NCBI GenBank assembly: GCA_016215445.1
Contig: JACRJL010000001.1
Coordinates: 186,001-250,000 of the forward strand
Direction of reading: 5' to 3'
Source: Candidatus Roizmanbacteria bacterium
GTDB lineage: Bacteria; Patescibacteriota; Microgenomatia; UBA1406; GWC2-37-13
DNA: 64,000 nt
The translations under genes were made by a program, and so were the position numbers. The notes below the pieces were generated by a model. The model saw only the letters and a list, made by a program, of their open reading frames with translations, did not search any database and was not told the origin of the DNA. Below, one piece after another: positions 10,514 to 54,369 of the stretch (within the stretch, counting starts at the first letter, position 1; every line of letters begins with the position of its first letter).

Positions 10514-10525
10514 GTTGTTATTTTA

Positions 10526-12148
10526 TCATAAACTAATTTTAAACAAAGGTAGAAACCTTGGAAAAAGATAGATCTGTTTGACGATTTTTTTATCGGAAAT
10601 TATGTCTATAGTCAAAGAATCAAGTTTGTCATTGGGAATGATATAAGAATGTTTTGATGAATCAGGTTGGTATTTTATATTATCTATTCTTGGGTCGGTT
10701 CTTATAGATAAAGGCGATGAAATATTAACAGGATAACCGAATTGGTCTTTGGCGAAAAAATCTATATTTATTGTCCGGTCGATTTTAATATCAGTCAGAC
10801 TTTTAAATCGGTTGATTTCCCTTTCAAATGGTTCGGGAAGATAAAGAGGATAGTTGGCGAATCTTTTCTCGTTGAATTTTTTCGGGTCAGTCTTTCCTAT
10901 TTTGAATGTTGGTTGTTTGTCGATAATAAAGTCATTTCTAGTTTCCGGAAAAATTGAATTAACGTGGTAGGTATGGGAATAGTCGATTGCATAAGGGACT
11001 ATCCAGTAGCCGTATTTTTTGGCTACATAATCTGTGTATGGATCGGAAAATCCTGAATCAAAATAACGGTAGTCTGTCGTAAAAACTTTGCCGCCAGATG
11101 TTCTAACTCTTTTCCGAAACTCCGGCGTCGTAACGAATTCTGCTTGATTGTCGGAATTATTAATAAGATCTTTTCCAGAATAAAAAGTCGTTTGTTGTTT
11201 TATCCAGTAAGTTAACAGTTGTTTTAAATCCGGAAAAACAACCTGACTTTTTAGTTGACTCACATATTCTATTTGTTTCAAATATTCGTTTTGGTAGTTT
11301 TCCTCCATAGAGTTTTCCAGCCCGAGCAGGGCAAACCCACTATTTTTCTGTTTAAAAAGAGCCTGATTAATCAATTTTTGGAAATAGTTAAAATCCAAGC
11401 CGCTGCCAATATAGTCGTTGGGTTGACTTGTAAATGCTTTTTTGGTTTCCCCGTAGTTATACAAAGGATCTGTGACTGTCTGTCTCAAAATCAAAGCCGG
11501 ATTTTTTTCCTTGAAGTCCGGAATGAAAGCCCAATTTCTTGAGGCTGGATAAGGGTAGTGAGGAGGACCGCCATAGAGAGTGTAACTGTCCTGGCCCCAT
11601 TGTTCCCGCGTAATCTGCTGAGCCAGGACTTTATATCGGTCGTGAATATAGTTAAGAGTTTCTGTATCTATAAGCCATGAGGAAGTGATGCTTGGATAGT
11701 AACCGAAGGTTTTTTTGAAAGTCGAGAAAAGCCGATCGATGATTTTTTTCCTGTCATCTTTTTGGTAGCCGACCGTAAAAGAATTTTGAGCTTCGAACCA
11801 TCTTTCCTCAGTGTCTTTATATTTGACTCCGGAATGTGCGGCAAGATTTGGCGTGATTTCTATCATCAGTCCAAGTTTGATAAGAGGACTGTTTGCGGTT
11901 TTTTGTTTCAGATAATCGACATATTCCGGGTTGGCCAAAGCGTCGTAACGAATGACAAAAAAAGCCGGAATCTGATATTGGATGAAAGCGTTAACTTGTT
12001 TTTCCAGGTTGTCTAGGTTTCCCTTGGAACAACACTCCTCTCCCCTAACCTGGTTGATGAAAATCACTTGCGGTTTTTCTTTGGCAAAAGACAAAACCGG
12101 GAGGAAAAAAAATAAAAGAGATATAAGAAGAATTTTTAAGAATTTCAT
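10526..12148 (-). CDS. Exported protein, possible polysaccharide-deacetylase-like barrel
   Basis: A 540-residue protein with a clear signal peptide (KILLISLLFFFLPVLSFAKE, cleavage near residue 22). The first 280 residues have the alternating strand-helix pattern of a (beta/alpha) barrel of the glycoside hydrolase/deacetylase type (VIFINQVRGEECC, AFFVIRYDALA, KLGLMIEITPNLAAHSG, FGYYPSITSSWLIDTETL). A beta-rich C-terminal part follows. The metal-binding residues of known deacetylases are not obvious, so activity is uncertain. It is 12 bases upstream of the DsbA-like gene in the same operon, consistent with an envelope role. Confidence 0.6.
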   Translation of the reverse strand: MKFLKILLISLLFFFLPVLSFAKEKPQVIFINQVRGEECCSKGNLDNLEKQVNAFIQYQIPAFFVIRYDALANPEYVDYLKQKTANSPLIKLGLMIEITPNLAAHSGVKYKDTEERWFEAQNSFTVGYQKDDRKKIIDRLFSTFKKTFGYYPSITSSWLIDTETLNYIHDRYKVLAQQITREQWGQDSYTLYGGPPHYPYPASRNWAFIPDFKEKNPALILRQTVTDPLYNYGETKKAFTSQPNDYIGSGLDFNYFQKLINQALFKQKNSGFALLGLENSMEENYQNEYLKQIEYVSQLKSQVVFPDLKQLLTYWIKQQTTFYSGKDLINNSDNQAEFVTTPEFRKRVRTSGGKVFTTDYRYFDSGFSDPYTDYVAKKYGYWIVPYAIDYSHTYHVNSIFPETRNDFIIDKQPTFKIGKTDPKKFNEKRFANYPLYLPEPFEREINRFKSLTDIKIDRTINIDFFAKDQFGYPVNISSPLSIRTDPRIDNIKYQPDSSKHSYIIPNDKLDSLTIDIISDKKIVKQIYLFPRFLPLFKISL

Positions 12149-35887: not shown

Positions 35888-36865
35888 ATGGCAAAAACAG
35901 CTTTAGTGACGGGAATTTTAGGACAGGACGGACCCTATTTGGCCGATCTTTTAATCAAAAAAGGCTACAGGGTTTTTGGACTGATCCGCCGTTATTCCAA
36001 CCCCAATTTTTCTAATCTTGACTATGTCGGCGTCACAAATGAAATCGACTATGTCGAGGGCGATATGAACGACGAAGCTTCGCTTTTGAATTTGATCCGA
36101 ACTCTTCACCCGGACGAAGTTTATAACCTGGCAGCCCAGTCTTTTGTCAAAACGTCTTTTGACCAAGCCAAGTTGACAACAGAGGTTAATTCCCTTGGTC
36201 CGTTATATCTTTTGAACGCGATTAAGTTTTTTTCACCGACAACTAAATTTTATCAAGCCTCAACGAGCGAGATGTTTGGACTCCAGCATACAAACGGCTA
36301 TCAGGACGAGCAGACTCCTTTTCACCCACGCTCTCCTTATGGCGTTTCCAAAGTTTATGCTTATTGGATGACTGTAAATTACAGAGAATCTTATGGCCTC
36401 TTTACCGCAAACGGGATTCTTTTCAACCACGAGTCACCGATTCGGGGCATTCAGTTTGTTACCAGAAAAATCACCGACGGCGTTGCCAAAATCAAACTTG
36501 GTTTGGCTAAGGAACTGCGACTTGGAAATCTTGATGCCAAGCGTGACTGGGGATTTGCCGGCGACTATGTCGAGGCAATGTATTTGATGTTACAACAAAA
36601 AAATCCGGATGATTATGTCATTGGCACGGGTGAAAGCCATAGCGTTCGTGAATTCGTCGAAGCAGCTTTTAAGTCAATCGGTATTGCCGATTGGAAAAAA
36701 TATGTCGTCATTGATCCTCAATTCAAAAGACCGGCTGAAGTGCCTAATTTAAAAGCTAAGGCCGATAAAGCAAAAAGAAACCTCAATTGGAAGCCAAAAG
36801 TGTCTTTTGAGGAATTGGTGGAAATGATGGTCAAGGCGGATCTCAAACGCTATGGATCGAAATAA
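35888..36865 (+). CDS. gmd: GDP-mannose 4,6-dehydratase
   Basis: A 325-residue dehydratase turning GDP-mannose into GDP-4-keto-6-deoxy-mannose. The NADP-binding loop GILGQDGPYLADLL, VYNLAAQSFVKTSF, the catalytic Ser/Thr region STSEMFG, YGVSKVYAYW, and the strongly conserved NHESPIRG, VTRKITDG and LGNLDAKRDWGFAGDYVEAM are all GMD features. The product can be reduced by the fucose synthase type enzyme at 56.6 kb. TGTTATAAT (ending 35876) is an extended -10 eleven bases before the ATG. The last 14 bases overlap the acyltransferase gene. Confidence 0.95.
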   Translation: MAKTALVTGILGQDGPYLADLLIKKGYRVFGLIRRYSNPNFSNLDYVGVTNEIDYVEGDMNDEASLLNLIRTLHPDEVYNLAAQSFVKTSFDQAKLTTEVNSLGPLYLLNAIKFFSPTTKFYQASTSEMFGLQHTNGYQDEQTPFHPRSPYGVSKVYAYWMTVNYRESYGLFTANGILFNHESPIRGIQFVTRKITDGVAKIKLGLAKELRLGNLDAKRDWGFAGDYVEAMYLMLQQKNPDDYVIGTGESHSVREFVEAAFKSIGIADWKKYVVIDPQFKRPAEVPNLKAKADKAKRNLNWKPKVSFEELVEMMVKADLKRYGSK

Positions 36866-40383: not shown

Positions 40384-41376
40384 ATGAGTTTATTTAATAA
40401 ACCTTTGGTTTCGGTGGTTCTGGCATCATACAATCATGTTCGTTTTATAAGAAAGGCAGTTGAATCTGTATTGAATCAGACGATGAAAAGTTTAGAACTA
40501 CTGGTTTTGGATGACGGCTCGACGGACGGGACAGCGGATATTGTTGCCAAAATCAAGGATAAACGGTTGAAACTGATCCGGCTAAGTCCGAATAGAAGAT
40601 ATCACCCTCGAAATATCGGAATTAAAATGGCGCGAGGCAAATATATCGCTTTTCAAAATTCAGATGACGTTTGGCTAAAAGATAAACTTGCAAAACAACT
40701 AAAATACTTTAGTAACAATCCAGATACTGTCTTGTGTTTTACACGTTTAAATATGATCGACGAAAAAGGGAAAATAATTAAAAAATCATGGGCTCACGGA
40801 AATCTTGCAGGATCTAATATGAATAACGATGCTTGGTTGAGACAGTTATTTATAGCAGGTTACAATTTTGGTATTGCATCGGCTCTTGTTAGAAAAGACA
40901 AGATAAATAAACTGAAAGGTTTTAACGAAACCATGGTACAAATGTCAGATTATGACCTTTGGATAAGGTTACTTGGTCTTGGCCAACTTTATATAATTGA
41001 AGAACCACTGACGCAATTGAGGGCAACTAAAAATAATTACAGCTATCCAAGAAAAGAAGTTTTTCTTAGAAGTGCTTTAGAAAACGTTGATATTTTAAAT
41101 CGTTATACCGAATGGCCAATAAGTAAATATTTACCTAATATTTTTCCAGATATCATGCCAAAGAAAGAAGTCTCTTTAAATATTCAGTTGGTGGCTTTAG
41201 CCCGTTATGCTTGGCGTTTAAAAACCCCACATCATGCTTTTTTTTCCGACCAACTGTTGGCGCGTTTGTTTAACAATCCAAGATCAAGTCACGAAATTCT
41301 TGAGTATTTTGGAGCCGGTTTGAAGAAAGAATATATAGAAAACCGGGGAAAGTTAAAAGTAGAAATTAATAAATAA
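40384..41376 (+). CDS. GT2 family glycosyltransferase
   Basis: A 330-residue GT-A enzyme. The domain starts with VSVVLASYNHVRFIRKAVES, has LDDGSTDGTADIV, the metal motif FQNSDDVW and the acceptor helix region SDYDLWIRLLGLG. No membrane helices, so it is a cytoplasmic enzyme that probably extends the glycan. It is 2 bases upstream of the NDP-hexose 2,3-dehydratase gene, suggesting that it may transfer the sugar made by that pathway. Confidence 0.9.
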   Translation: MSLFNKPLVSVVLASYNHVRFIRKAVESVLNQTMKSLELLVLDDGSTDGTADIVAKIKDKRLKLIRLSPNRRYHPRNIGIKMARGKYIAFQNSDDVWLKDKLAKQLKYFSNNPDTVLCFTRLNMIDEKGKIIKKSWAHGNLAGSNMNNDAWLRQLFIAGYNFGIASALVRKDKINKLKGFNETMVQMSDYDLWIRLLGLGQLYIIEEPLTQLRATKNNYSYPRKEVFLRSALENVDILNRYTEWPISKYLPNIFPDIMPKKEVSLNIQLVALARYAWRLKTPHHAFFSDQLLARLFNNPRSSHEILEYFGAGLKKEYIENRGKLKVEINK

Positions 41377-41378
41377 GA

Positions 41379-42665
41379 GTGAATAAATTAATGAATCTTG
41401 ATGAATGGTTTAGCGAACTTATTAAAAAATCATCTTTTCATACGGAATGGATTTCCCTCTCGAAAAGTTCGTCATGGCATTTGAGGGACGGCAGAATTAG
41501 CCATAAGTCAGGTCGTTTTTTTAGCATAGTAGGTATTGAATATAAAGATAATCAAGGAATCACACAGTATCAGCCTTTTATAGAGCAGAAAGAAATAGGG
41601 ACTTTGGGTTTTTTAATGAGGGATACAAAGAAAGGAAAGGAAATTCTTGTTCAAGCAAAGATCGAGCCGGGAAACGTTGAAGTTGTCCAATTGGCTCCGA
41701 CCTGTCAAGCTACCAAAAGCAATCTGCTTCGGATTCACGGCGGAAAAAATCCACCTTTTTCCCACGTCTTTGCCGATAAACACCTTCAAATAATTAAATC
41801 GTCATTGCAGAGTGAACAAGGGAGTCGTTTCTTCGGAAAACAAAACAGCAATATTATTGCGTTAATCAAGCAGAAATTGAATCTTCCCGATACTCATCGT
41901 TGGTTATCAATTGATAATCTATTAAATTTGCTTTCGAAGGATTATCTTGTCAATACAGATGCCAGGTCGGTTTTAGTGACAAGCCCTTGGGATAAATTGG
42001 TTGACCGTCCGGTCTTTTCTCGTTATAAGGACGATTTTTCAAAAGACCTGGCAAGATCATATAAGGAAGAAATAAATACAGCGTATTTTAAGAGAATGAA
42101 AAATAACATAGTCTTTCTTAGACAAAAAGACAAAAAGGCCAGAATAATTCCATTAAATAAAATGAAAAACTGGGAGATCAAGGAAAAAGAAATTAAGCCT
42201 TTGACTAAAAAACCGTTCCGAGTGAGATTCTTGAAAGTAGTGGCCAAAAATCGCGAAGTCCCGGAATGGGATCAGCCAATTATTGATAGTTATTCTGAAG
42301 GTCGAGTCGATTTAGTTTGCGGAAGAATAAGAGGCGTTTTACATTTTCTTTTTAAGCCGGTCGAAGAAACAGGTTTATATAATAATATCGAGTTATCTCC
42401 TACCCTTTGTGTCGAGCCTGGAGAAAACAAAAAAATAAAAAATATCTATAAAGGCAGGGTCATGGTTTCAGTAAAACAATCAGATGAAGGTGGAAGATTT
42501 TACCAAGATTCAACCAGGTATAGCATTACAGATATGGGAGAGGCCAGCTTAAAATTAGGAGGCTATTGGCTAAATTTAAAGCAAATCCAAAATCTCCTGT
42601 TTGAAAATGGTTGGCTTACTAATGAAGCTCGTTCAGTACTTTCACTTCTTCTTTATTGGCTTTAA
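41379..42665 (+). CDS. NDP-hexose 2,3-dehydratase family protein
   Basis: A 428-residue protein with the two-copy architecture of NDP-hexose 2,3-dehydratases (Pfam Hexose_dehydrat; relatives of TylX3 and EvaA). The first half has FFSIVGIEYK, GTLGFLMRDTKKG and VEVVQLAPTCQATKSN; the second half repeats this as REVPEWDQPIID, GVLHFLFKPVEETG and ELSPTLC. These enzymes remove the C2 hydroxyl of NDP-4-keto-6-deoxyhexose in 2-deoxysugar synthesis. The start is GTG at 41379 (or ATG at 41391). Its end overlaps the convergent DegT gene by 4 bases, next to matching pathway genes. Confidence 0.85.
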   Translation: MNKLMNLDEWFSELIKKSSFHTEWISLSKSSSWHLRDGRISHKSGRFFSIVGIEYKDNQGITQYQPFIEQKEIGTLGFLMRDTKKGKEILVQAKIEPGNVEVVQLAPTCQATKSNLLRIHGGKNPPFSHVFADKHLQIIKSSLQSEQGSRFFGKQNSNIIALIKQKLNLPDTHRWLSIDNLLNLLSKDYLVNTDARSVLVTSPWDKLVDRPVFSRYKDDFSKDLARSYKEEINTAYFKRMKNNIVFLRQKDKKARIIPLNKMKNWEIKEKEIKPLTKKPFRVRFLKVVAKNREVPEWDQPIIDSYSEGRVDLVCGRIRGVLHFLFKPVEETGLYNNIELSPTLCVEPGENKKIKNIYKGRVMVSVKQSDEGGRFYQDSTRYSITDMGEASLKLGGYWLNLKQIQNLLFENGWLTNEARSVLSLLLYWL

Positions 42666-43798
42666 TCCGTTACAACATTATTTACTGATTTAATCACGTA
42701 GTTTATTTCCTTTTCAGTTAATTTTGGATAAAGTGGAATTGTAATTGTTGAGTCTCCTATTTTCTCGGCTATTGGGAAGGAATCCTTTTTGTATCCATAT
42801 TTATCTTTATAATATTTCATTAAGTGGATAACCCTGAAATTTACTGCGACGCCTATATTCTCGTTTTGGATTTTATGTAAATATTCATCTCTTTTTGAAG
42901 GATCTACCCAGATTGTATAAATATGTCTTGCGTGTTTGGTTTTTTCCAAAACCATTGGGAATTTAATATTTTCATTTTTTTGAAAACCTTTATTGTATTT
43001 TTTTGCGATAAGTTCTTTTTGGGAACGAAATTTTTCAACGTTGTCAAGCTGATTAAATAATAAAGAAGCCTGGATATTAGTCATATTACATTTAAATCCC
43101 AAAAATTCCATATCGTAATGTTCATATTTTTTTGAATATCTGTCGACTGCGTTTTTGCTCATTCCGTGTTGTCGGGCTTTTAACAGCCATTCGTACATTT
43201 TCTTGTCGTTTGTTGCTATAGCTCCACCTTCACCTGAGGCGATATTCTTTGTCGCATAAAAACTAAAACAGGAGGAATTTCCATATTGCCCAACTCTAAT
43301 ACCATCCCTTTTACCTTCAATACAGTGGGCAGCATCTTCTATAATTTTAAGAGAATATTTATTGGCAATTTTTCTAATTTTTTTCATATCACACATGTGA
43401 CCGTATAGGTGTACAGGCATGATTGCTTTTGTTTTAGAAGTTATTTTGGATTCGATTAGATCAGCATTTATGTTGCCGGTTGATTCCTCAACGTCAACGA
43501 AAACAGGTTTGGCTCCGCAATACTCAATTACGTTTGATGTAGCGATAAAAGATAACGGGGTCGTAATAACTTCATCGCCTTTTCCGATGTTAAAATATCT
43601 CAAAGAAAGTTCCAGAGCGTCAGTGCACGTATTAACAGTGACCACGTATTTTATATTCAAATATTTAGAAAACTTCTTTTCGAATTCCTTGACCCACTCT
43701 CCGGTTGTTAAAAATATGGAATCTAAGACTTTTCTGACATTATTCTTGTCAGTCAAGGATAAATTGTGTTTATAAAATTCAATCTTTTTATTTCTCAT
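42662..43798 (-). CDS. DegT/DnrJ/EryC1/StrS aminotransferase
   Basis: A 378-residue PLP-dependent sugar aminotransferase. Motifs: TGEWVKEFEKKF, VNTCTDALELSLR, VITTPLSFIATSN, the PLP Asp in IIEDAAHCIEG, and the Schiff-base Lys in SFYATKNIASGEGGAI. It transfers an amino group to a keto-sugar nucleotide. The frame is open to 43834, but the ATG at 43798, one base after the stop of the upstream epimerase gene, is preferred. With the 2,3-dehydratase it could act at C3 of a 3-keto-2,6-dideoxyhexose. Confidence 0.93.
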   Translation of the reverse strand: MRNKKIEFYKHNLSLTDKNNVRKVLDSIFLTTGEWVKEFEKKFSKYLNIKYVVTVNTCTDALELSLRYFNIGKGDEVITTPLSFIATSNVIEYCGAKPVFVDVEESTGNINADLIESKITSKTKAIMPVHLYGHMCDMKKIRKIANKYSLKIIEDAAHCIEGKRDGIRVGQYGNSSCFSFYATKNIASGEGGAIATNDKKMYEWLLKARQHGMSKNAVDRYSKKYEHYDMEFLGFKCNMTNIQASLLFNQLDNVEKFRSQKELIAKKYNKGFQKNENIKFPMVLEKTKHARHIYTIWVDPSKRDEYLHKIQNENIGVAVNFRVIHLMKYYKDKYGYKKDSFPIAEKIGDSTITIPLYPKLTEKEINYVIKSVNNVVTD

Positions 43799-43799
43799 A

Positions 43800-44822
43800 T
43801 TAGAATAAATTTTTGTCAATTTTAATTTCTTCAATTAATTTATGTGCATCCATAAGATACTGGTAATATTTTAATGTACTTGTTTTTAAATCATTTTTAA
43901 TTATACCTTCTTCTAAAGCTTTTTTTATTTCAATAATTCCGTCATCAATATTTTTTTTGGTAATGAATTTTAATACTTTTTTTATCTTTTTGAAAGATAC
44001 GTGATAACTTCTTTTGTCAGGGTCATCTGGAGTATCTTCTATTATTAAATTAGGAAAGAATTTTTTAAAGTTTAAAGCTACTTTAAAAACCTGGTAGTTC
44101 TCCGAATCAGAACCGACATTAAATACTTGCCCGTTTATTTTACTTAGATTATTCTCTTTTATAACAAGATAGAAAGCATTGATGCAATCGTCCAGATGCA
44201 TTAATGGTCGCCATTGCTTACCACCACCCATAATGAATATTTTATTATTTTTCCATGCGTGCAAAGTCATTATATTTATAATTAGGTCAAATCTCATTCT
44301 TTTCTCTGATAAGCCGTATAACGTTGATAATCTTAGTACTGTAACGCAAAAATTTTTCCCCGATAATTTCAAAATTTCCTTTTCAGCGTTTATTTTTGAT
44401 TTGGCATATTCAGAAATGGGAGCCAAGTCAGAATTTTCATTTAGGATTTTTTCCCCGTGACCGTAAACACTACAAGAAGAAGCAAATATATATTTTTTTA
44501 CTCCGGCTTCCTTAGAAAATTTTGCCAACCTTACTGCTCCTATATAGTTTACGTCTTTTGTGAGTTTTGGATCGAGTTCGCTGGCTGGATCGTTTGAGAT
44601 AGAAGCAAGGTTTATTACGACATCAATATTTTTAAGTATTGCTTTATCGAAAAACCTAATGTCGTTTTTTATAATCTTAAGGTTTTTGTTGACGTTGTCT
44701 TTGAATATATCTCCAAAATAAAATCTGTCGAGAACAGTTACTTGATAGTTATTATCAAGAAAGAATGAAGCCATTTTAGAACCTAAGTATCCTCCGCCCC
44801 CGACGATAATAACGCTTTTCAT
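43800..44822 (-). CDS. NAD-dependent sugar epimerase/dehydratase
   Basis: A 340-residue extended SDR protein. The NAD loop is VGGGGYLGSKMASFFL, followed by INLASISNDPAS, the catalytic ASSCSVYGHGE, YAKSK and the substrate region FDLIINIMTLHAWKN. The family includes nucleotide-sugar epimerases, 4,6-dehydratases and 4-ketoreductases. In this cluster a 4-ketoreductase or epimerase step of the amino-deoxysugar pathway is the natural guess. It lies 2 bases after the GNAT gene and 1 base before the DegT gene. Confidence 0.88.
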   Translation of the reverse strand: MKSVIIVGGGGYLGSKMASFFLDNNYQVTVLDRFYFGDIFKDNVNKNLKIIKNDIRFFDKAILKNIDVVINLASISNDPASELDPKLTKDVNYIGAVRLAKFSKEAGVKKYIFASSCSVYGHGEKILNENSDLAPISEYAKSKINAEKEILKLSGKNFCVTVLRLSTLYGLSEKRMRFDLIINIMTLHAWKNNKIFIMGGGKQWRPLMHLDDCINAFYLVIKENNLSKINGQVFNVGSDSENYQVFKVALNFKKFFPNLIIEDTPDDPDKRSYHVSFKKIKKVLKFITKKNIDDGIIEIKKALEEGIIKNDLKTSTLKYYQYLMDAHKLIEEIKIDKNLF

Positions 44823-44824
44823 AT

Positions 44825-45556
44825 TTAATTATTATGTTTATGATACACTAATTCTGTTTTTTGTAAAACGAATTGATTTCTTTGGTAAAAAGCATTAGCG
44901 GCTGTATTTTCACCTTCTGTGACGACGTATATTTTATCAATTCCGCGGCTTTTTAAATAATTAAAAGCTTTGTTAAGCAATACTGAACCTAATCCTTTAT
45001 TTTGATGAGGTTTTAAAACAGCTATAAGATCAATGAACCCGACACCTTCTTTGACTTTAACAGTTATAAAACCGACGGCTTTATCACCGCTTAGTGCAAA
45101 AATGCATTTGTCGGCATATTTATTGTAGAAACTATTATTAATCCAAGTCAAATAGATTTTCTCCCCAATTTTTCTGCTAATTCTTCTGTCTTTACTGTAT
45201 CTACTTGTTTGTAGTAATATCCGAATAAATTTATCTATATCATTACTATTTAGTTTTGATTTAACTTGGTCGGAGTGGGAAAACTTAAAAAATTTTGGCA
45301 TAGATATATTTTTATATTTATACTTTGAAGAAAGCTGATAGGTGTTCCTTATGCTAACCAGGTTGAATCCCAATTTTTCCAGAATTTCTATATTCTGATT
45401 GTCAAAAACAGTAAAGCAAAACACAACGTCAACGGGAAGTTTTTTTATTTTTGCAATAACTGATTTTTTATTTTTTAAAGTTTTCTCCAAATATAATTTA
45501 TAGACGTTTTTTCCGAACAGGCGGCTGTCGAATTCTTCCCTGAATAATTTAAACAT
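44825..45556 (-). CDS. GNAT N-acetyltransferase, WecD-like
   Basis: A 243-residue protein. The start (FREEFDSRLFGKNVYKLYL) resembles the N-terminal half of WecD (dTDP-fucosamine acetyltransferase), and the C-terminal half is a GNAT domain with the acetyl-CoA loop LKPHQNKGLGSVLLNKAF and AANAFYQRNQF. It probably acetylates the amino group added by the DegT enzyme. It lies between the GT2 gene (5 bases) and the epimerase (2 bases) in one operon. Confidence 0.82.
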   Translation of the reverse strand: MFKLFREEFDSRLFGKNVYKLYLEKTLKNKKSVIAKIKKLPVDVVFCFTVFDNQNIEILEKLGFNLVSIRNTYQLSSKYKYKNISMPKFFKFSHSDQVKSKLNSNDIDKFIRILLQTSRYSKDRRISRKIGEKIYLTWINNSFYNKYADKCIFALSGDKAVGFITVKVKEGVGFIDLIAVLKPHQNKGLGSVLLNKAFNYLKSRGIDKIYVVTEGENTAANAFYQRNQFVLQKTELVYHKHNN

Positions 45557-45561
45557 ATTAT

Positions 45562-46485
45562 TTATAACAGTTTTGTTTTTATAACATATAATGGTCTTTT
45601 TTTGGACTCGATATAGTTTTTTCCCAGATATTCCCCCATAATACCCAATAATATGATTTGGATCCCTCCGATTAAAATAATAGAGCTAAAAAGAGAAGTC
45701 CAGCCAATAATAGGTGTATTGTAAGCAAATTTTCTGAATATTATGTAAATGTTCAAAACAAATGAAGCCATAACCAATAACAAGCCTACTCTGTTGGCAA
45801 TTTTCAGTGGATAGTCGGAGAAAGAAGTGATGGCATTAATCGCCAAATCAAGTTGTTTAAAAAAATTATACTTTGTTTTTCCGTTTGACCTTTCACCGTG
45901 CTCTACAAAACAATAACCATGTTTAAAACCTACCCAGCCGACTAATCCGACGATGTATCTATTTGATTCCCTAAGCTGTCCAATGCTTTCTTTTACTTGT
46001 TTAGTCATGATTCTGAAAATAGTACTGTTAATGATTATATTTTCGTTGATTAAAAACTTGATTATGTAATTGAATAAAGAAGAGGAAAGTTTTTTCAAAA
46101 TCCCGAATTTTTTGTTTTTCCTTACCGCGTAAACAACATCATAGCCTTTTTTGAGCTTATTAAAAAGATTGACTATTTCTTCGGGCTGATCCTGCAAATC
46201 TCCATCCATCATAACTATATAATCTCCTGCCGCGTGATCAAGTCCGGCCGTAATTGCGATATGATGACCGAAGTTTCGACTGAACCCGATTATTTTTATG
46301 TTGTTGTCTTTTTTTCTTAGCTTCTTTAATAGTTCAAGCGTGATATCTTGGCTACCGTCATCGACAGCGATGATTTCATAACTGAAGTTTCTAAAATATT
46401 TTCTCAAGGTAACAGAGAGTCTTTTATATATTATATTTACATTTCCTCTTTCGTTATAGAAAGGGATGACGATTGAGATCTTCAT
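45562..46485 (-). CDS. GT2 glycosyltransferase, GtrB/DPM1 type
   Basis: A 307-residue GT-A enzyme with two C-terminal helices (VGLLLVMASFVLNIYIIF, SLFSSIILIGGIQIILLG). Motifs: IVIPFYNERGNV, AVDDGSQD, FSRNFGHHIAITAGLDHA, and MDGDLQDQPEE. It resembles polyprenyl-phosphate glycosyltransferases that make lipid-linked sugars. It is the first gene of the minus-strand operon with the acetyltransferase, epimerase and aminotransferase, so it may load the finished amino sugar onto a lipid carrier. Confidence 0.92.
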   Translation of the reverse strand: MKISIVIPFYNERGNVNIIYKRLSVTLRKYFRNFSYEIIAVDDGSQDITLELLKKLRKKDNNIKIIGFSRNFGHHIAITAGLDHAAGDYIVMMDGDLQDQPEEIVNLFNKLKKGYDVVYAVRKNKKFGILKKLSSSLFNYIIKFLINENIIINSTIFRIMTKQVKESIGQLRESNRYIVGLVGWVGFKHGYCFVEHGERSNGKTKYNFFKQLDLAINAITSFSDYPLKIANRVGLLLVMASFVLNIYIIFRKFAYNTPIIGWTSLFSSIILIGGIQIILLGIMGEYLGKNYIESKKRPLYVIKTKLL

Positions 46486-46546
46486 AATAAGGTTTAACTG
46501 TTTTTATTATATAATAATTTAGTCATTTTTTTAAAGATTTCCCTAA

Positions 46547-47656
46547 TTGACAGCCTTGAACAGCAAAAATCATTTTTACAACTTGGATTCTTTAAGGCTC
46601 TTCGCTTCTTTACTAATACTGATCCACCATGTGGAACAGTTTAAACTGTGGTCAAATTTACCCAATCTTTATGGGGATTATTGGATAAAAGAAATCGGTA
46701 GATTGGGAGTTTCCGTTTTTTTTGTATTAAGCGGATTTGTAGTTACAAACAGTTTTTTAAAATCGCTTAAAAAAAATAAAAATATCTCCATAAAGGAATA
46801 TATGCAAAAAAGATATTCCAAGCTTATGCCTTTATATTATTTGGTGCTTTTTTTAAGTTTACTTGTCATTCCCTTATTCAATAAAATGGTTGGAGTAAAC
46901 TTAGGATACACAAAGATTACAGTCTTTAACTTGCTATTTTACTTATTGTTTTTCCCAGACCTTCTTTTCATATTTGGTAAGCCCTTATTGGGGATATCAC
47001 AATCTTGGTTTCTTGGCGTTCAAGAACATTTATATATTTTTTGGCTTTTTATTTTAAAGAAGTTGAGAAAAATCAGTTTAAAGACAGTTATTTTCATAAT
47101 TGCCGGAAAATTGGTCTTATTAAATTCGTTTTATTTACTTTACTCTTTTATAAACTCCGATTTAATTTCAAAAATAATAACGGGCTTTATATTTGTGGAT
47201 TTTGAAAGCGTCATTATAGGAAGTTTCGGCGGCTACATGCTTTTTAGCAGTAGACAAATCAAAAGCAAAAAAATCATTTTTTTTCTTGGGTTAGCCTATT
47301 TGATTTTATCTACGGTTTTTAATTTTGCTGGTTTAGTAAAAACAGAGATAATCAGATACAATTTCCAAATAATTCTTTCAACTATCAGGGCCTTTTCACT
47401 TTTGTCAGTAATTTTTTACATTTCTTTCAATGAAAAATTATTTCCTTTTAATTTGAGTCTTTTTAGAAGGCTCGGTAACTATTCGTACGGAATTTACATG
47501 TTTCATCCTTTTGTTAGCGTTTTTTTAATCAATTACCTGAAGTTGAATAAAAGCCTTTTAGAGAACTATTTTTTTATTTATTCTTCCGTGATACTTTTAA
47601 CCGCGGGAGTATCGATTGTCTATTTCAGGTATGTTGAGTCCAGGCTGGTAAAATAG
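46547..47656 (+). CDS. Acyltransferase family 3 membrane protein
   Basis: A 369-residue protein with about ten helices. The N-terminus NLDSLRLFASLLILIHHVEQF is the acyltransferase-3 signature, with FVLSGFVVTNSFLKSL following, and the C-terminal YSYGIYMFHPFV is the second family mark. It would O-acylate a glycan, carrying acyl groups across the membrane. The start is not ATG: the frame begins with TTG at 46547 (or TTG at 46556). The 3' end overlaps the convergent gene by 37 bases. Confidence 0.88.
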   Translation: MTALNSKNHFYNLDSLRLFASLLILIHHVEQFKLWSNLPNLYGDYWIKEIGRLGVSVFFVLSGFVVTNSFLKSLKKNKNISIKEYMQKRYSKLMPLYYLVLFLSLLVIPLFNKMVGVNLGYTKITVFNLLFYLLFFPDLLFIFGKPLLGISQSWFLGVQEHLYIFWLFILKKLRKISLKTVIFIIAGKLVLLNSFYLLYSFINSDLISKIITGFIFVDFESVIIGSFGGYMLFSSRQIKSKKIIFFLGLAYLILSTVFNFAGLVKTEIIRYNFQIILSTIRAFSLLSVIFYISFNEKLFPFNLSLFRRLGNYSYGIYMFHPFVSVFLINYLKLNKSLLENYFFIYSSVILLTAGVSIVYFRYVESRLVK

Positions 47657-49533
47657 GATATTAAGACACTTTGTATATTGATGTTCGGAGCCTTTATCAC
47701 GGTTTTCAGAAGCGAATCACCCGGAAAATTCTTGTTTACTAAATAGGAAAAACCAAAACTGTTTGAGAAAATTTTTTGATCATCTATAAAAGCGCTCGGT
47801 TCATTATCGTTAACCTTGGTTTGAAAATTCAATAAATATTTTCTGTACTTGGAATATGTATATAGATTGACATTATTAGAAAAAAAACCGAAAAGTTCGC
47901 CTTCCTTTACTAAACTATCGATTTTAGATAAGGTTAGAAAAACGTTCGGATCTTTTTCTTCCTGATAATAACCTAGGTAATAAAGTTTACTTGTCAATTT
48001 TTCAGGCTCATCCTTATATTTTTTGTTGAATTCTTCTTTATTTATAATGAATTCTATATTTTTACCTGTTTTTATTTTTATATAGTTATCCCAATAGCCT
48101 TTATACGTAAAAAAAGTATTAAGATTCGGTGAATAAATATAACTATTATTGGGAATTTCGTTAAATTCAGGAGTTTTTAATAAGGGTTTTATTACATTCC
48201 ACATTAAAGTCATTTGTTTTTGGGAAAGGTTTATATGGTAGTTTGTGTAATCGATGATGATACTTAGAATTGACACTGTGATAATAATAAAAAAAAGAAT
48301 CAAAGATTTTAAAATATTTGGTCTAAATATTTCTTTTGCTTTATAAACTATCAGACTTAAAAGAAAGACACTGCCGAAATATGAAAAATAAGTAGTCGTA
48401 AAGCCAATGATTGATCCGCCCAAAACCCAAAATTGATATTTATCAGTTAAGGCAATTATTAATTGAGGTATAAAAACAAGGAGTATGGAAGTCAAAATTA
48501 GAAAAAAATAAGATTTATTATTGATAATCTTTTCTTTAAAGTTAGATATTAACCAGATTAGTAAAGACAACAGCAAAGCTTTAATTAACCAAATTAATTG
48601 AATGTTTCCCAATATAAATAAAATGTTTCTCCTGTCTCCGAATAACGAATATGAATGTTCAATAAAATAATTTGTATATAGTTTATTTAAATAGATATAT
48701 CCTGGAAACGAAGAAATCCCGAGTTGAAAGGCCGTTTGCATATATTTTACGGGTTCAAGTTTCCCTAGCATATTTCCTGCATATCCTCCGGCCGGATATC
48801 GGAGCTGAAATAAGGTATAAACTGAAAAATAGACAAAAATCGAAAACAGATGATAGCCAATATTTGTCAGTAACATTTTGGCTCTGTCTATTAGATGGAA
48901 TTTTGTTTTCAACGCTTCATTTAAAGCTATAAAAAAATAAAATATAAAATAAACGAGGAAAGTTTCATAAGTGAGTAAAGATAGGAAAAAGCAAAAAGCG
49001 CTAATTATCTTCCAAAACTTTTTAGGTGAGTAAAAATATTTTTTATAAAGTAATAGTCCTATTAAAGTAAAGTTGAAACTGGTTGTAAATACGAAGGGAT
49101 AAGCGGTAAGAAGGTTGTGTTCCCAGGAATTCTGCATAAAAGCGAAAAAAAGAGCCGCCATTATTAAAGACAGCTTTTTTGATTTGAAAAACTGAAAAAT
49201 CAGCAAACTAAAAAGCGTTATATTTAAAATAATAGGCAAAAAACCAATTATCCTTGTGTAGGTAACACTGTCGAACAGATAGGGAAAAAAAAGCAGAAGA
49301 CCACTATATATGAAAAAAAATCTTCCCTGTCCTTGAGCAAAAGAAAAAGCAGTCTTGAAAAGATTATTTTCTTTGTTGATGGCAAAAAGTTTATTAGTTA
49401 AGTCATCGTACGTAAGGATTCCTATTTGCGAAAAAGAGGAAAATACAATTAAAATTATCGTAACCAATAAAACAGTTATAACAATGTTTAAAGGGTCTTT
49501 AAGGAAATCGAGTTTCTTATTAAATAAAGTCAT
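47620..49533 (-). CDS. Large multi-pass membrane protein of the glycan island
   Basis: A 637-residue protein with about eleven hydrophobic helices in the first 430 residues and a soluble C-terminal domain of about 200 residues. The first outer loop (TYDDLTNKLFAINK) carries two adjacent aspartates, a layout seen in GT-C enzymes, but no firm motif allows assignment. It could be a glycosyltransferase or polymerase. The frame is open to 49608, but the ATG at 49533, which overlaps the end of the GT4 gene by 14 bases, is preferred. Confidence 0.6.
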   Translation of the reverse strand: MTLFNKKLDFLKDPLNIVITVLLVTIILIVFSSFSQIGILTYDDLTNKLFAINKENNLFKTAFSFAQGQGRFFFIYSGLLLFFPYLFDSVTYTRIIGFLPIILNITLFSLLIFQFFKSKKLSLIMAALFFAFMQNSWEHNLLTAYPFVFTTSFNFTLIGLLLYKKYFYSPKKFWKIISAFCFFLSLLTYETFLVYFIFYFFIALNEALKTKFHLIDRAKMLLTNIGYHLFSIFVYFSVYTLFQLRYPAGGYAGNMLGKLEPVKYMQTAFQLGISSFPGYIYLNKLYTNYFIEHSYSLFGDRRNILFILGNIQLIWLIKALLLSLLIWLISNFKEKIINNKSYFFLILTSILLVFIPQLIIALTDKYQFWVLGGSIIGFTTTYFSYFGSVFLLSLIVYKAKEIFRPNILKSLILFFIIITVSILSIIIDYTNYHINLSQKQMTLMWNVIKPLLKTPEFNEIPNNSYIYSPNLNTFFTYKGYWDNYIKIKTGKNIEFIINKEEFNKKYKDEPEKLTSKLYYLGYYQEEKDPNVFLTLSKIDSLVKEGELFGFFSNNVNLYTYSKYRKYLLNFQTKVNDNEPSAFIDDQKIFSNSFGFSYLVNKNFPGDSLLKTVIKAPNINIQSVLISYFTSLDSTYLK

Positions 49534-50869
49534 ATAATTTTTTAGCTGTTTTTTCCCATGAAAATTTCTGGCTTTGTACGATTCCATCCTTGGCCATAGT
49601 ACTAGCAATCGTTTTGTTTTTTATCAGATATGATATTTTATTCTTGATGTCCAGAAAATTATTAGGATCTACATAGAGAGGAGCGCTACCTCCAACTTCA
49701 GTCAAAGAAGAATTAGCCGAGGTAATGACAGGAGTTCCAAGATACATACTCTCCAAAACAGGAAGGCCGAACCCCTCATAAAAACTCGGGTAGACTAAGG
49801 CGTAGGCGTTTTTGATTATTTTCTTTAAATATTTATCGTTGATGTAATTTACAATTATGATTGGTGACTTTTCGTCGTTTGGATAATTTTCCCGCAAATA
49901 TTCTATAATTCTATTTCTGATATTTCCCCAGCCTTTTCCGCCAATCATCAATAGTTTATAATTCTCTGGAATTTTTTTAGTCTCTAATAGTTCAAGGAAA
50001 CCTTTAACCAAGTAACTCAAATTTTTCCTGGGTTCAAAAGTGCCATAGTAGAGTAAATACTTATTAGGTATGAGTGTGATTCTGCGGTTTGAAACGATGT
50101 TTGTAGTTTGAATCAGTGTACTTTTCTTAGTTTCTTTATTACTCTTGAAAGAGTCATCGATACCTGGATAAGCGATTATGATATTTTTGTTTTTAAATTC
50201 CGGTGAATACTTAAGAAGATCTCTCTTGGTGGATTGACTGATGCATATAATATCTTGGCAATATTTTCTTGCAAATTTAAGTTTTCTTGTCTGCAGATCT
50301 ATTGTTTCATTACGGTGAAACTCAGGAACAATAAAAGCGGTTAAATCATAGATAGTAATGATATTTCTATAATTATTTAATGGGTAAAAGCTGGTTTCCG
50401 AATGGACAATTGTCTTTATGGAGTTTTTTTTAAATTCTTTATCAAGAATTTTGAGGTAATTGTTAAATCTGAATCTATTAATTATTTGTTTATAAAAGCT
50501 CTTTATATTAAAAATTTTATCTGCCAGTTTCAATATTATTCTTAGAGGTGGAAAATCAAATAAGTCATTATAAATCATATTCTCTTGGTTAATATTTGGA
50601 AGCTTGTTTAGATAAATGACGTTTTTATTTTTTAATAAGCTGTAAAGTTCCGGATTGAGAGGTTGCTTGAGAAGGTCGTAATTAAAAGTAAATAAAAAAA
50701 TCGTCGCGTTTTTATCTTTTTTCTTAAGGAAACTACTCAAAGAAGAAATTAGGCCATAAGTATAACGGTAAACCCCGGATTTATCCCCAAACGTTCCGGA
50801 TGCTGTCATCAAAGGGCTAATCTCAAAAGCTATTTTGAACGCCTTATTTTTTAGTTTAAAATTCGACAT
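49520..50869 (-). CDS. GT4 family glycosyltransferase
   Basis: A 449-residue GT-B enzyme. N-terminal features include ASGTFGDKSGVYRYTYGL and TIYDLTAFIVPEFHR; the C-terminal nucleotide-sugar domain has LYYGTFEPRKNLSYLV, VNYINDKYLKKIIKNA and the E-x7-E motif in FYEGFGLPVLESMYLGTPV, then FSWEKTAKKLYDF at the end. It is about 70 residues longer than the GT4 at 37.7 kb because of inserts in the first domain. It overlaps the sulfatase-like gene by 14 bases and the membrane gene by 14 bases, so the three are coupled. Confidence 0.9.
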   Translation of the reverse strand: MSNFKLKNKAFKIAFEISPLMTASGTFGDKSGVYRYTYGLISSLSSFLKKKDKNATIFLFTFNYDLLKQPLNPELYSLLKNKNVIYLNKLPNINQENMIYNDLFDFPPLRIILKLADKIFNIKSFYKQIINRFRFNNYLKILDKEFKKNSIKTIVHSETSFYPLNNYRNIITIYDLTAFIVPEFHRNETIDLQTRKLKFARKYCQDIICISQSTKRDLLKYSPEFKNKNIIIAYPGIDDSFKSNKETKKSTLIQTTNIVSNRRITLIPNKYLLYYGTFEPRKNLSYLVKGFLELLETKKIPENYKLLMIGGKGWGNIRNRIIEYLRENYPNDEKSPIIIVNYINDKYLKKIIKNAYALVYPSFYEGFGLPVLESMYLGTPVITSANSSLTEVGGSAPLYVDPNNFLDIKNKISYLIKNKTIASTMAKDGIVQSQKFSWEKTAKKLYDFI

Positions 50870-52385
50870 ATTCCTTTATCTTTTCAAAAGATACTTTGTT
50901 TTCAGTGCTGACTCTGAGTATTTTATCAATTTCTAACCTTAATTTCATTAAATTCGTATTAATTTTATTTTCATCAAAATATTTTTTTTGAAAAAATGAG
51001 AAAAAGGGTTTTAATTTTTTTTCCTTTGAATTAATGAGAATTTCGATAAAAGCTTTTTTTGTTATTTCATTTTTCTTAAGTTTTCTAAGAAAAAGATTAT
51101 AGGCATTTTTTTCGGGTGATCTTCCGAAAAGAAAATGATACGATTTTTTTATAAGTCCAGCGATTTTTTTTTCTTTATATAGACTATCAACCTTTTCGGG
51201 CTGATTTTTGATAATTATTTTTGATTTTTCTCCTATAAGACCGCGATTATAAACAATACTTTCTGTATTTATAAATTTTCTATTAAGATTGACTAGTCTT
51301 GTGGTGTTATCGGTCATATGAGGATTATTTTTACCTAAATAATATATGAAAGTTTCGGCGTAAATATATTTTTCCTCTTTAAATAACTTTTTAAATTTAA
51401 AATAATCATAATCTATTCGAGATCTATTATTAACAGCGTTATTAATTATCAAATTCTTCAGGAAGGAGATTGAAAATAAATTTTCATTTAACGGAGTCCC
51501 TAATTTGGAAGTAGATAAAAATATCTTTGTCGTTTCTTCAGTCAATTCTCCGCTGTGGGCAAAATTAGTGTTATTTACAAACTCGGTTTTCCCTTCTCCG
51601 TGGTCACTTAAGAAAACGAAGAAAGTATTGTTATCATTAAAACCCATAGAATTTAAACGTTGATAGATTTTAGTTAATCTAAGGCGGTCAAATTTCTCTA
51701 TACCTTTTGAGTAGTATTGCATTAGTGTTCCCTCTTGATCAATTTTATTGATTTCTATGAAATTTCTTATTTCGCTCCAAGCATTGTGAGGTTTTTCTTT
51801 CTGATTTATTTTTGATTTTAAGTGGATTTTTTTTCTTATTTCTCTAATTGTATCGTAATAGTCTTCGTTTATTTTTTTGTTTTCAGACTTATCTTCTATT
51901 AATAGGTATGGTTCGTGAACGTCAAAGGTGTGAATAAAAATAAAATTACATTCAGCTTTTAAGTCTTCTACAGAATTCCAAAGCCAGTTCATTTTAGAGT
52001 GGGTTTTAATTTTGAACCCACGCCAGATATCCATGACAGAAAACAGTTCGGGTATATCAGAGTAAAAAAAAGTTTGGTAATTTAGACTATTGAGATTTTC
52101 CGAAAGAGTTTTTACTTTTGAGCTTAGTTGTTGTTCAAAATCAAAAAAAGATCTTATTCCATGAACAGGCGGATATTTCCCTGTAAAAAAAGAGGCATGT
52201 GCGGAAGTTGTGTAAGTATTGGTTGAATATGCATTTGTGAAGATAGTTCCCTTCTTAGAGAAATTATCTAGATTTGGAGTTTTAATTAAATCATGATTAC
52301 CTTTTCCGTAAATTAAATCCCGGCTGTAGTTAGTTCCGTCAGCTCGTAGGGAATCGATTAAAATTACGACAATATTTTTAAACAT
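50856..52385 (-). CDS. Sulfatase/phosphoglycerol-transferase-fold protein with DUF4214-like tail
   Basis: A 509-residue protein. The alkaline-phosphatase fold is shown by NIVVILIDSLRADGTN, a Thr/Ser-rich site TYTTSAHASFFTGKYPPVHG in place of the Cys/Ser-x-Pro-x-Arg of true sulfatases, and FVFLSDHGEGKTE. A Thr nucleophile is more like phospho- or phosphoglycerol transferases than sulfatases. Residues about 410-460 (YHFLFGRSPEKNAYNLFL, then ITKKAFIEILINS) resemble a DUF4214 domain. No membrane helix or signal peptide is seen, so it may act in the cytoplasm on a lipid-linked glycan. Confidence 0.75.
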   Translation of the reverse strand: MFKNIVVILIDSLRADGTNYSRDLIYGKGNHDLIKTPNLDNFSKKGTIFTNAYSTNTYTTSAHASFFTGKYPPVHGIRSFFDFEQQLSSKVKTLSENLNSLNYQTFFYSDIPELFSVMDIWRGFKIKTHSKMNWLWNSVEDLKAECNFIFIHTFDVHEPYLLIEDKSENKKINEDYYDTIREIRKKIHLKSKINQKEKPHNAWSEIRNFIEINKIDQEGTLMQYYSKGIEKFDRLRLTKIYQRLNSMGFNDNNTFFVFLSDHGEGKTEFVNNTNFAHSGELTEETTKIFLSTSKLGTPLNENLFSISFLKNLIINNAVNNRSRIDYDYFKFKKLFKEEKYIYAETFIYYLGKNNPHMTDNTTRLVNLNRKFINTESIVYNRGLIGEKSKIIIKNQPEKVDSLYKEKKIAGLIKKSYHFLFGRSPEKNAYNLFLRKLKKNEITKKAFIEILINSKEKKLKPFFSFFQKKYFDENKINTNLMKLRLEIDKILRVSTENKVSFEKIKEYVEF

Positions 52386-52409
52386 TACGAGGAAATTCTA
52401 ACAAATAAT

Positions 52410-53084
52410 TTACCAATAGCCAAGCTTACGAAGTCTGTCCATGGTTTTTTCCTTGGTAGCCTCTCTCCCCGCCCGTTCAGGAGCATTTTTGTCTTTCACA
52501 GGTTTGGTAAATGGTCTTTCTCCTAATGATTTATATCCCTTATCGTATAAATTTACATAGGGAACTTTATATTTTTTAATATATGCCCAAATATCTTTGA
52601 TTGTAAACTCAAGGATTGGATGGACGCGATCGTGTGTAGCTCTTTTTGAAAAAAATGTTTCTTTAGATCGGGCTTCGTGCTCATCCAATCTTATTCCAGA
52701 GATAAAAGCTTTTATATTATATTTAGAAATTGTATAGTTTATAGCGTTGATTTTGGCAATTCTCATTATTTCCATTTTCTCCTCTTTGTTTTTTGTTTTT
52801 TTATAAGATTCAAGATCTTCCTGCGTGTGTTTTTGCCAAATAAGATCTAATTTCCATTTTTTTGTCAATTTTTTGACAAAATCATACACTTCTGGAAATT
52901 CCAAGGTGGAGTCGTTAAACATAAGTTTGAAAGGGACTTTACCTTTAAATACTTTTCTTACTAAGTGGAGGACTACGGTCGAGTCTTTGCCACCTGTCCA
53001 GGCAATTGCAATAGACTCTTTCGGATATTTTTTTACAGCTTCCTTGATAATTTGGTGGGCCTTTTTTATTTTTTGATTGAGCAT
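52410..53084 (-). CDS. PAPS-reductase/CysD-family PP-loop protein without reductase cysteines
   Basis: A 224-residue PP-loop ATP pyrophosphatase-fold protein. The PP loop is AIAWTGGKDSTVVLHLV near residue 30, with ISGIRLDEHEARSKE and VHPILEFTIKDIWAYIKKY. It resembles PAPS/APS reductases, but the CPCT cluster site reads GERPFT and the C-terminal ECGLH is absent; the ending ERAGREATKEKTMDRLRKLGYW-like stretch recalls CysD. It may activate sulfate or insert sulfur in another molecule. It could also start at GTG 53087. It is divergent from metK and 24 bases upstream of the sulfatase-fold gene. Confidence 0.7.
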   Translation of the reverse strand: MLNQKIKKAHQIIKEAVKKYPKESIAIAWTGGKDSTVVLHLVRKVFKGKVPFKLMFNDSTLEFPEVYDFVKKLTKKWKLDLIWQKHTQEDLESYKKTKNKEEKMEIMRIAKINAINYTISKYNIKAFISGIRLDEHEARSKETFFSKRATHDRVHPILEFTIKDIWAYIKKYKVPYVNLYDKGYKSLGERPFTKPVKDKNAPERAGREATKEKTMDRLRKLGYW

Positions 53085-53165
53085 CACTTTATAATGATAT
53101 CAAAAGATTTCTTGAAAAGTTTGAAGGAAGACAAAAATTATAGTATTATTTGGCTAATTAACAAA

Positions 53166-53258
53166 ATATCAAGAGTGATGGAAAGAGAGCTATCTCGCGA
53201 TTATCCATCCAGCAGCCGATCCCAAAAGGGCCACGGTGCTAAATCTAGATACAGATAT
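53166..53258 (+). promoter_or_regulatory. SAM-I (S-box) riboswitch-like leader of metK
   Basis: The 93 bases before metK follow the S-box order: TATCAAGAG, P2 base GATGG (53177-53181) with CCATC (53205-53209), P2 tip GAG/CTC, a GA kink-turn, GCAGCC, P3 with CCG/CGG (53216-53218, 53234-53236) and CCC/GGG, then GGTGCTAAAT (53235-53244). Loop CTA (53190-53192) can pair with TAG (53246-53248) as the pseudoknot. P1 is ATATC (53166-53170) with GATAT (53254-53258), which includes the AT of the start codon at 53257. P4 is minimal or missing, and GCAACC reads GCAGCC. Confidence 0.8.
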
Positions 53259-54369
53259 GCCCAATACGAGAAAAACTTATACTTCAGAATCTGTTTGTGC
53301 AGGGCACCCGGATAAAATCTGCGATCAAATATCAGATGCGATACTGGACGAAGCCCTTAAAAAAGATAAATTCTCTCGCGTTGCCGTTGAGACATTAGTG
53401 ACAAAAAATTTTATTGCTTTGGCAGGGGAAGTCACGAGCAAGGCAAAACTGAACTATAAAATAATTGCCGGAAAAGTTATAAGGCAACTGGGTTACACAA
53501 ATCCAAAACTTAAATTCACCAATAAGTCTCCAATTATAGTTAAAATTCATACCCAGTCACCCGAGATTGCCGTTGGTGTTAACAAATTAGGCGCAGGAGA
53601 TCAGGGAATGATGTATGGATTTGCCACGGATGAAACAAAAGAATCTATGCCTCTTCCAATTATGCTGGCTCATAAATTAGCAATGAAGATTGATGAGTTA
53701 AGAGAGACAAAACGTCTTCCCTACCTCCGACCGGACGGCAAGACGCAGATTACAATGTCTTATGAAAATGGAAAACCGGTCAGTGTGGAAACGGTTGTAA
53801 TTGCGGTACCGCATTCGGAGGAAGTAAAACTAGAACAGATGAAAGAAGATCTTTATCAACAATTAATAATTAAAGAATTAACGAATTACGGATTACGGAT
53901 TAAGAGAGATCAATTGATAGTAAACGGTACGGGAGTATGGCATATTGGTGGTCCGGCAAGTGATACTGGAGTGACTGGAAGAAAGATCATCGTTGATTCA
54001 TATGGTTCGTTCGCCCATGTCGGCGGGGGGGCTTTTTCCGGCAAGGATCCGACCAAAGTCGACCGGTCGGGTGCTTATGCTGCTCGCTTTTTGGCTAAAA
54101 ATATCGTCGCAGCCGGTTTGGCGAAAAAGTGCGAAGTCAGGCTGGCTTATTTTATCGGCGCAAAAAAACCAGTCATGCAAGAGGTGGAAACTTTTGGAAC
54201 GGCGAAGAAAAGTGAAAAAATAATTAAGAGTTTTATGAAAAAGATTTTAGATACATCACTATCGGGAATTTTAGAAGGATTGAATCTTCGTAGGCCAATT
54301 TATTTTAAAACAGCCGTTTATGGACATTTCGGAAGAGATGGGTTTCCTTGGGAGAAAATTATTCTATAA
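53257..54369 (+). CDS. metK: S-adenosylmethionine synthetase
   Basis: A 370-residue enzyme making SAM from methionine and ATP. Motifs: YTSESVCAGHPDKICDQISD with the ATP-binding His, GAGDQGMMYGFATDET, then GGPASDTGVTGRK, and GGGAFSGKDPTKVDRSGAYAAR. The last region is nearly canonical. The frame is open to a GTG at 53236, but the ATG at 53257 gives the normal family start and is the codon locked in P1 of the riboswitch. The gene carries 7-base tandem repeats at 53883-53903 in a variable loop (LTNYGLRIK). Its end overlaps the convergent gene by 6 bases. Confidence 0.95.
   Translation: MPNTRKTYTSESVCAGHPDKICDQISDAILDEALKKDKFSRVAVETLVTKNFIALAGEVTSKAKLNYKIIAGKVIRQLGYTNPKLKFTNKSPIIVKIHTQSPEIAVGVNKLGAGDQGMMYGFATDETKESMPLPIMLAHKLAMKIDELRETKRLPYLRPDGKTQITMSYENGKPVSVETVVIAVPHSEEVKLEQMKEDLYQQLIIKELTNYGLRIKRDQLIVNGTGVWHIGGPASDTGVTGRKIIVDSYGSFAHVGGGAFSGKDPTKVDRSGAYAARFLAKNIVAAGLAKKCEVRLAYFIGAKKPVMQEVETFGTAKKSEKIIKSFMKKILDTSLSGILEGLNLRRPIYFKTAVYGHFGRDGFPWEKIIL
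53883..53903 (+). repeat. Tandem 7-base repeat inside metK
   Basis: GAATTAC, GGATTAC and GGATTAA follow each other. They are translated as part of ELTNYGLRIK, in a segment ahead of the conserved GGPASDTG block where MetK proteins vary in length. Confidence 0.5.

Follow-up and report, generated by a model that had tools for sequence, protein, structure and literature searches.

Two operons meet tail to tail in a surface-glycan region

We analysed a 64,000-nucleotide stretch of DNA (the window; bases 186001-250000 of contig 2) from the Patescibacteria genome Candidatus Roizmanbacteria bacterium (940,317 bases, 3 contigs, 97% complete), in which an EvaA-like dehydratase of family PF03559 and an aminotransferase of the DegT/DnrJ/EryC1/StrS (DegT) family are encoded end to end. 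The surrounding genes, among them those for a Wzx-like flippase, an ABC-2 exporter, acyltransferases and several glycosyltransferases, belong to a surface-glycan region. The dehydratase closes a plus-strand operon (module B) and the aminotransferase closes a minus-strand operon (module A), the two overlapping by 4 bases at their stop codons (Table 1). A first-pass annotation had read both operons as one pathway to an acetylated 3-amino-2,3,6-trideoxyhexose, a type of sugar best known from antibiotics. On balance, and with moderate confidence, we favor two independent sugar modules that have no intermediate in common.

The gene layout of that annotation is sound. All five genes it named are open reading frames with strong family matches in two facing operons, and its gaps of 1-5 bases come to 1, 2 and 5 bases once the aminotransferase, whose frame is open to 43834 (42662-43834, minus strand), begins at its likely start, the ATG at 43798. 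Two genes were absent from it: a GDP-mannose 4,6-dehydratase (Gmd) within the window, and GT2a, a family 2 glycosyltransferase (GT2) in the operon of the dehydratase, upstream of it with a 2-base gap.

Table 1 Genes of the two modules and selected neighbors (positions in the window)
Feature	Coordinates	Strand	Basis
GT2a, GT-A glycosyltransferase, module B gene 1	40384..41376	+	family match; type and order as in L087 and L088; beyond the span of the first-pass annotation
PF03559 two-domain EvaA-like dehydratase, module B gene 2	41379..42665	+	318.7 bits; catalytic E96 and E146
DegT/DnrJ/EryC1/StrS aminotransferase, likely C-4 type, module A last gene	42662..43798	-	391 bits
Short-chain dehydrogenase/reductase (SDR), NAD-type Rossmann fold, module A	43800..44822	-	nearest solved relative Cj1427 C4-dehydrogenase
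WecD-like GNAT N-acyltransferase, module A	44825..45556	-	end-to-end alignment with the WecD model, below cut-off
GT2b, ArnC/PgfS/GtrB-like polyprenyl-phosphate glycosyltransferase, module A gene 1	45562..46485	-	family matches
Gmd, possible source of 4-keto-6-deoxy sugar	35888..36865	+	419 bits against a cut-off of 415
Acyltransferase family 3 membrane protein, divergent neighbor	46547..47656	+	family match

The dehydratase belongs to a separate clade linked to a glycosyltransferase

2,3-Dehydratases are known from antibiotic sugars, and their reactive diketo product must be taken up by a reductase or an aminotransferase. The window dehydratase, which matches PF03559 in two stretches, is intact by sequence and predicted fold. 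It shares 30% identity and a two-domain Nudix-like fold with EvaA of Amycolatopsis orientalis (4J7G), a dTDP-4-keto-6-deoxyglucose 2,3-dehydratase. Its AlphaFold2 model (predicted local distance difference test 91.2, predicted template modeling score 0.91) matches EvaA with a Z score of 43.2 and a root-mean-square deviation of 2.2 over 392 residues, and the next matches are Nudix-fold proteins at Z 10. The active-site residues on which the first-pass annotation counted are in place: the pocket A glutamates E139 and E190 of EvaA correspond to E96 (in KIEPGN) and E146 (in QSEQGS), and both are kept in all 84 proteins. EvaA mutants at E139 and E190 lose all activity, according to a review (PMC8987622).

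A scan of 84,980 species gave 564 dehydratase relatives, of which we kept 80 loci, selected for their resemblance to the window or to its relatives. In the tree of 84 full-length PF03559 proteins, the window dehydratase and 14 others form a clade (support 100/100) that branches off on a long stem and includes neither EvaA nor any canonical member. Hosts of the clade include Pseudomonadota, Acidobacteriota, Myxococcota, Balneolota and Patescibacteria, and its members carry specific changes at positions conserved in canonical members (for example, EvaA M237 and N450 are both T).

The genomic context of the clade, labeled by BLAST against a small reference set, is equally distinct. A GT2 gene lies directly beside the dehydratase at 13 of 15 clade loci (14 when L092, read from the sequence, is included), compared with 3 of 68 canonical loci. 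Gfo/Idh genes occur within 5 kb at none of the 15 clade loci and at 53 of the 68 canonical ones (Fisher p 1e-8); for aminotransferases the counts are 1 of 15, the window itself, and 47 of 68. Every canonical locus (68/68) has one of these two partners or both. Unlike EvaA and its TylX3, SpnO and UrdS relatives, the window enzyme sits in a clade whose partner is a GT2 in place of a Gfo/Idh 3-ketoreductase, aminotransferase, RmlC or C-methyltransferase, and it lies outside any recognizable deoxysugar or antibiotic cluster. For the window dehydratase we found neither a Gfo/Idh 3-ketoreductase nor a C-3 aminotransferase, the usual genetic partners for a 3,4-diketo product, which is a feature of context and not of catalysis.

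At least two types of GT2 occur as partners, and the type and gene order found in the window are common to L087 and L088 (38-41% identity). In other species the pair often stands among housekeeping genes; its neighbors, which we named by reading their sequences, include dnaK with cas9, cysS, secA and genes for beta-oxidation. Since the pair recurs alone in unrelated bacteria, it probably lies outside the amino-sugar pathway. Any PF03559 protein was found in 8 of 380 sampled Patescibacteria, and a clade profile run over 398 genomes from the phylum of one carrier (G385) matched none beyond G385 itself; the cassette is therefore rare, although these samples show rarity and are not a census. No dehydratase match was found in phage records, and 85 plasmid records matched, mostly from Streptomyces. 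IMG/VR held 16 dehydratase loci, most with an adjoining Gfo/Idh gene and an aminotransferase, and at none of the 16 did a GT2 of the window's type stand beside the dehydratase. We found no published description of a GT2-PF03559 pair in the open literature, subscription papers not being covered.

Several relatives are unusual in their own right. The predicted viral contigs from IMG/VR (L167-L182, up to 405 kb) carry a 2,3-dehydratase mostly with Gfo/Idh and DegT aminotransferase genes, and some add a C-methyltransferase or Gmd. At a Candidatus Dojkabacteria locus (L035, CP129477.1, 8216-10226), a sulfotransferase-like gene, read from the sequence, overlaps the start of the GT2-linked dehydratase, and the GT2 is on the opposite strand. 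At a Patescibacteria locus (L033, G183), PF03559 is divided between two single-domain genes that flank a Gfo/Idh gene (8639-9337, 9334-10350 and 10352-11119); the second gene keeps both catalytic glutamates and the first is more diverged. Other Patescibacteria (G056, G142 and G147) encode diverged single-domain PF03559 proteins (L036 8664-9281, L037 8991-9782 and a match in L038), and in L036 and L037 the position of the second catalytic glutamate is aligned with K and Q, respectively, so that their function may differ.

The aminotransferase is likely a C-4 enzyme

Aminotransferases beside actinobacterial 2,3-dehydratases act at C-3, as EvaB does in antibiotic pathways, and the first-pass annotation expected 3-transamination here. 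Database scores alone leave C-3 and C-4 unsettled: the best single PDB match (phmmer) is the C-3 enzyme QdtB at 238 bits, and the best NCBIfam model is the C-4 enzyme PseC. We therefore compared motifs and tree positions. The solved C-3 aminotransferases DesV, QdtB and WlaRG have an additional residue in the K-loop (KNLGxxGDGG or KVLGAYG), together with a Y-P-x-P-x-H motif, and so do the enzymes encoded next to actinobacterial 2,3-dehydratases. In ArnB and PseC the K-loop is shorter; ArnB has a five-residue spacing before the second histidine, and Helicobacter pylori PseC lacks that histidine.

The window protein has the catalytic lysine, a short K-loop (KNIASGEGG) and the second motif N-F-R-V-I-H, spaced as HFRAAH in ArnB. 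H309 and Y310 of QdtB, the first residues of its HYPxPxH motif, are N and F in the window protein. In the tree it falls outside the C-3 clade (26 rows, 100/100), which unites DesV, QdtB, WlaRG and the aminotransferases adjoining actinobacterial 2,3-dehydratases, and groups with ArnB (81/91), PseC forming a separate branch. It thus lacks the motif, K-loop and clade membership of QdtB, DesV and EvaB, and resembles ArnB, PseC and GDP-perosamine synthase in its lysine, short K-loop, spacing and place beside ArnB, differing from these in scoring under the NCBIfam cut-offs of PseC, ArnB and WecE. Two motifs and the tree position make it likely a C-4 aminotransferase, contrary to the expected 3-transamination.

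The window enzyme is the only DegT aminotransferase above 100 bits in its genome. Its 63% (G199) and 50% (G269) relatives, and an SDR-aminotransferase pair (G343), come from genomes where PF03559 was not found. A relative occurs in 5 of the 8 Patescibacteria genomes bearing PF03559 and in 187 of the 380 sampled, without clear enrichment. That the dehydratase and the aminotransferase act on the same sugar is thus unsupported from both sides: the closest aminotransferase relatives occur where PF03559 was not found, and in the GT2-linked dehydratase clade an aminotransferase adjoins in the window only. With a C-4 type aminotransferase and a GT2-linked dehydratase, an antibiotic-type 3-amino-2,3,6-trideoxyhexose is unlikely. 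Separately, the 63% relative (L073, 4368-9977) adjoins the gene for an RmlD-like SDR, and the facing cluster includes a C-methyltransferase, possibly for a C-methylated amino sugar.

Module A resembles known 4-amino sugar pathways

The best solved relative of the SDR is Cj1427, the Campylobacter jejuni GDP-D-glycero-D-manno-heptose C4-dehydrogenase (residues 2-304, 139 bits). The relation is distant, and the window SDR is flanked by an aminotransferase and a GNAT instead of heptose genes. The GNAT aligns end to end with the WecD model at 63.6 bits, under its cut-off of 219, and a PDB sequence search returned only weak, short GNAT matches. GT2b gives nearly full-length alignments with ArnC (172 bits, cut-off 529) and PgfS (233 bits, cut-off 500). 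Although all these scores are under the equivalog cut-offs, the WecD-like GNAT and ArnC-like GT2 point to a lipid-carried 4-amino sugar.

From these matches we infer a route in which RmlB or Gmd, or the SDR acting as a C-4 oxidase, would supply a 4-keto sugar, to be aminated at C-4 by the aminotransferase and acylated by the GNAT. The product would be an N-acylated 4-amino-4-deoxy (probably 4,6-dideoxy) nucleotide sugar, and GT2b would move the acylated sugar to polyprenyl phosphate. C-4 amination, N-acylation and transfer to polyprenyl phosphate by an ArnC-like GT2 are in part those of WecE-WecD (dTDP-Fuc4NAc) and ArnB-ArnC (Und-P-Ara4N); the window operon differs in its additional Cj1427-related SDR, in the lack of a visible formyltransferase and in its lower scores. 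Module A is thus an ordinary variant of this chemistry. Of the first-pass proposal, an N-acylated amino sugar is consistent with the minus-strand operon, as a sugar loaded on a polyprenyl carrier, its trideoxyhexose type being unlikely.

The genome can very probably supply the 4-keto-6-deoxy sugar substrate. RmlA and RmlB are outside the window, as the first-pass annotation stated, and both are encoded elsewhere: RmlB on contig 3 (371152-372111; 492 bits, cut-off 365), adjoined by an RmlD-like gene, and a probable RmlA of 246 residues that matches TIGR01207 over nearly its full length (253 bits, cut-off 361). With Gmd in addition, the capacity to make a nucleoside diphosphate (NDP)-4-keto-6-deoxyhexose that the annotation presumed is very probably present. 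No clear RmlC match is present in the genome, where a single cupin scores 31 bits, and family searches of this 97% complete genome gave no Gfo/Idh or aldo-keto reductase match.

Probably two modules rather than one pathway

We infer that modules A and B probably do not share an intermediate. Neither needs the other in other genomes, and the GC fraction steps from 0.35-0.365 in module B to 0.30-0.33 in module A. In module B, a nucleotide sugar would undergo glutamate-dependent elimination by the EvaA-like protein, after which the adjoining GT2a would transfer the product, with no 3-ketoreductase or aminotransferase dedicated to the module. Module B places its EvaA-like enzyme in a rare stand-alone two-gene cassette found in several phyla. 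Naming a pathway from neighboring enzyme families can mislead, and here the neighbors are most likely from different modules.

Several points weigh against this reading. The two operons abut in this genome, and the GC step is small, in a window whose 1-kb segments have a GC standard deviation of 0.04. The C-3 or C-4 assignment depends on motifs and a tree, so that the enzymatic role is a predicted one, and clade sizes are no census, since similarity guided the choice of the 80 public loci. Finally, with no Gfo/Idh or aldo-keto reductase match, any 3,4-diketo sugar formed by the dehydratase would most naturally be taken up by the nearby SDR or aminotransferase.

The last point and the abutting operons are the strength of a rather unlikely alternative, a single pathway with C-4 amination. 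Here the dehydratase would form a 3,4-diketo-2,6-dideoxy sugar, the SDR would reduce C-3, and the aminotransferase (at C-4) and GNAT would yield a 4-acylamido-2,4,6-trideoxyhexose for lipid loading by GT2b; a dehydratase, a Gfo/Idh protein and a non-C-3 aminotransferase do occur together in many Bacteroidota and phage contigs. However, the window's clade has no aminotransferase at any other locus, the best solved relative of the SDR is a C-4 dehydrogenase, and the aminotransferase relatives, including the SDR-aminotransferase pair, occur where PF03559 was not found.

We consider it unlikely that the GT2-linked clade has ceased to dehydrate NDP-4-keto-6-deoxyhexoses and acts on another sugar nucleotide. 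The clade-specific substitutions are consistent with such a shift, as are two carriers. A Candidatus Dojkabacteria genome in one contig (G297) has the dehydratase and no match to a DegT aminotransferase, RmlB or Gmd, and in Pseudomonas neustonica (G384), which also has it, neither RmlB nor Gmd exceeds the cut-off. The SDRs left in the two genomes resemble, on our reading, GalE, a UXS-like enzyme and UDP-GlcNAc dehydratases. Yet the catalytic glutamates and fold are kept, most other carriers have RmlB or Gmd, and the two absences could reflect assembly gaps or unrecognized enzymes.

The first-pass pathway, in which 2,3-dehydration is followed by transamination at C-3, reduction of the 4-keto group by the SDR and N-acetylation to give a 3-acetamido-2,3,6-trideoxyhexose, is very improbable: every enzyme class is adjacent, the DegT aminotransferase is the only one at hand and QdtB is its best PDB match, but the K-loop, the histidine motif with N and F for H309 and Y310, the tree position and the PseC model all argue for C-4.

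Returning to two modules, a dehydratase clade that has a GT2 beside it and neither usual partner, with no evident source of the usual substrate in two of its genomes, raises the question of which sugar is made and for which destination. Tentatively, the GT2-PF03559 cassette may be an undescribed glycosylation module that moved between phyla as a unit, its Nudix-fold eliminase either passing a keto-deoxy product directly to a dedicated glycosyltransferase or acting on a sugar other than NDP-4-keto-6-deoxyhexose.

Other features of the window

GC is lower across window positions 42600-52000 (about 0.27-0.33, window mean 0.356), with an onset near the junction of both operons. Within the glycan region, positions 50856-54369 encode sulfatase/phosphodiesterase-family and PAPS-reductase-family proteins, adjoining an S-adenosylmethionine synthetase gene.

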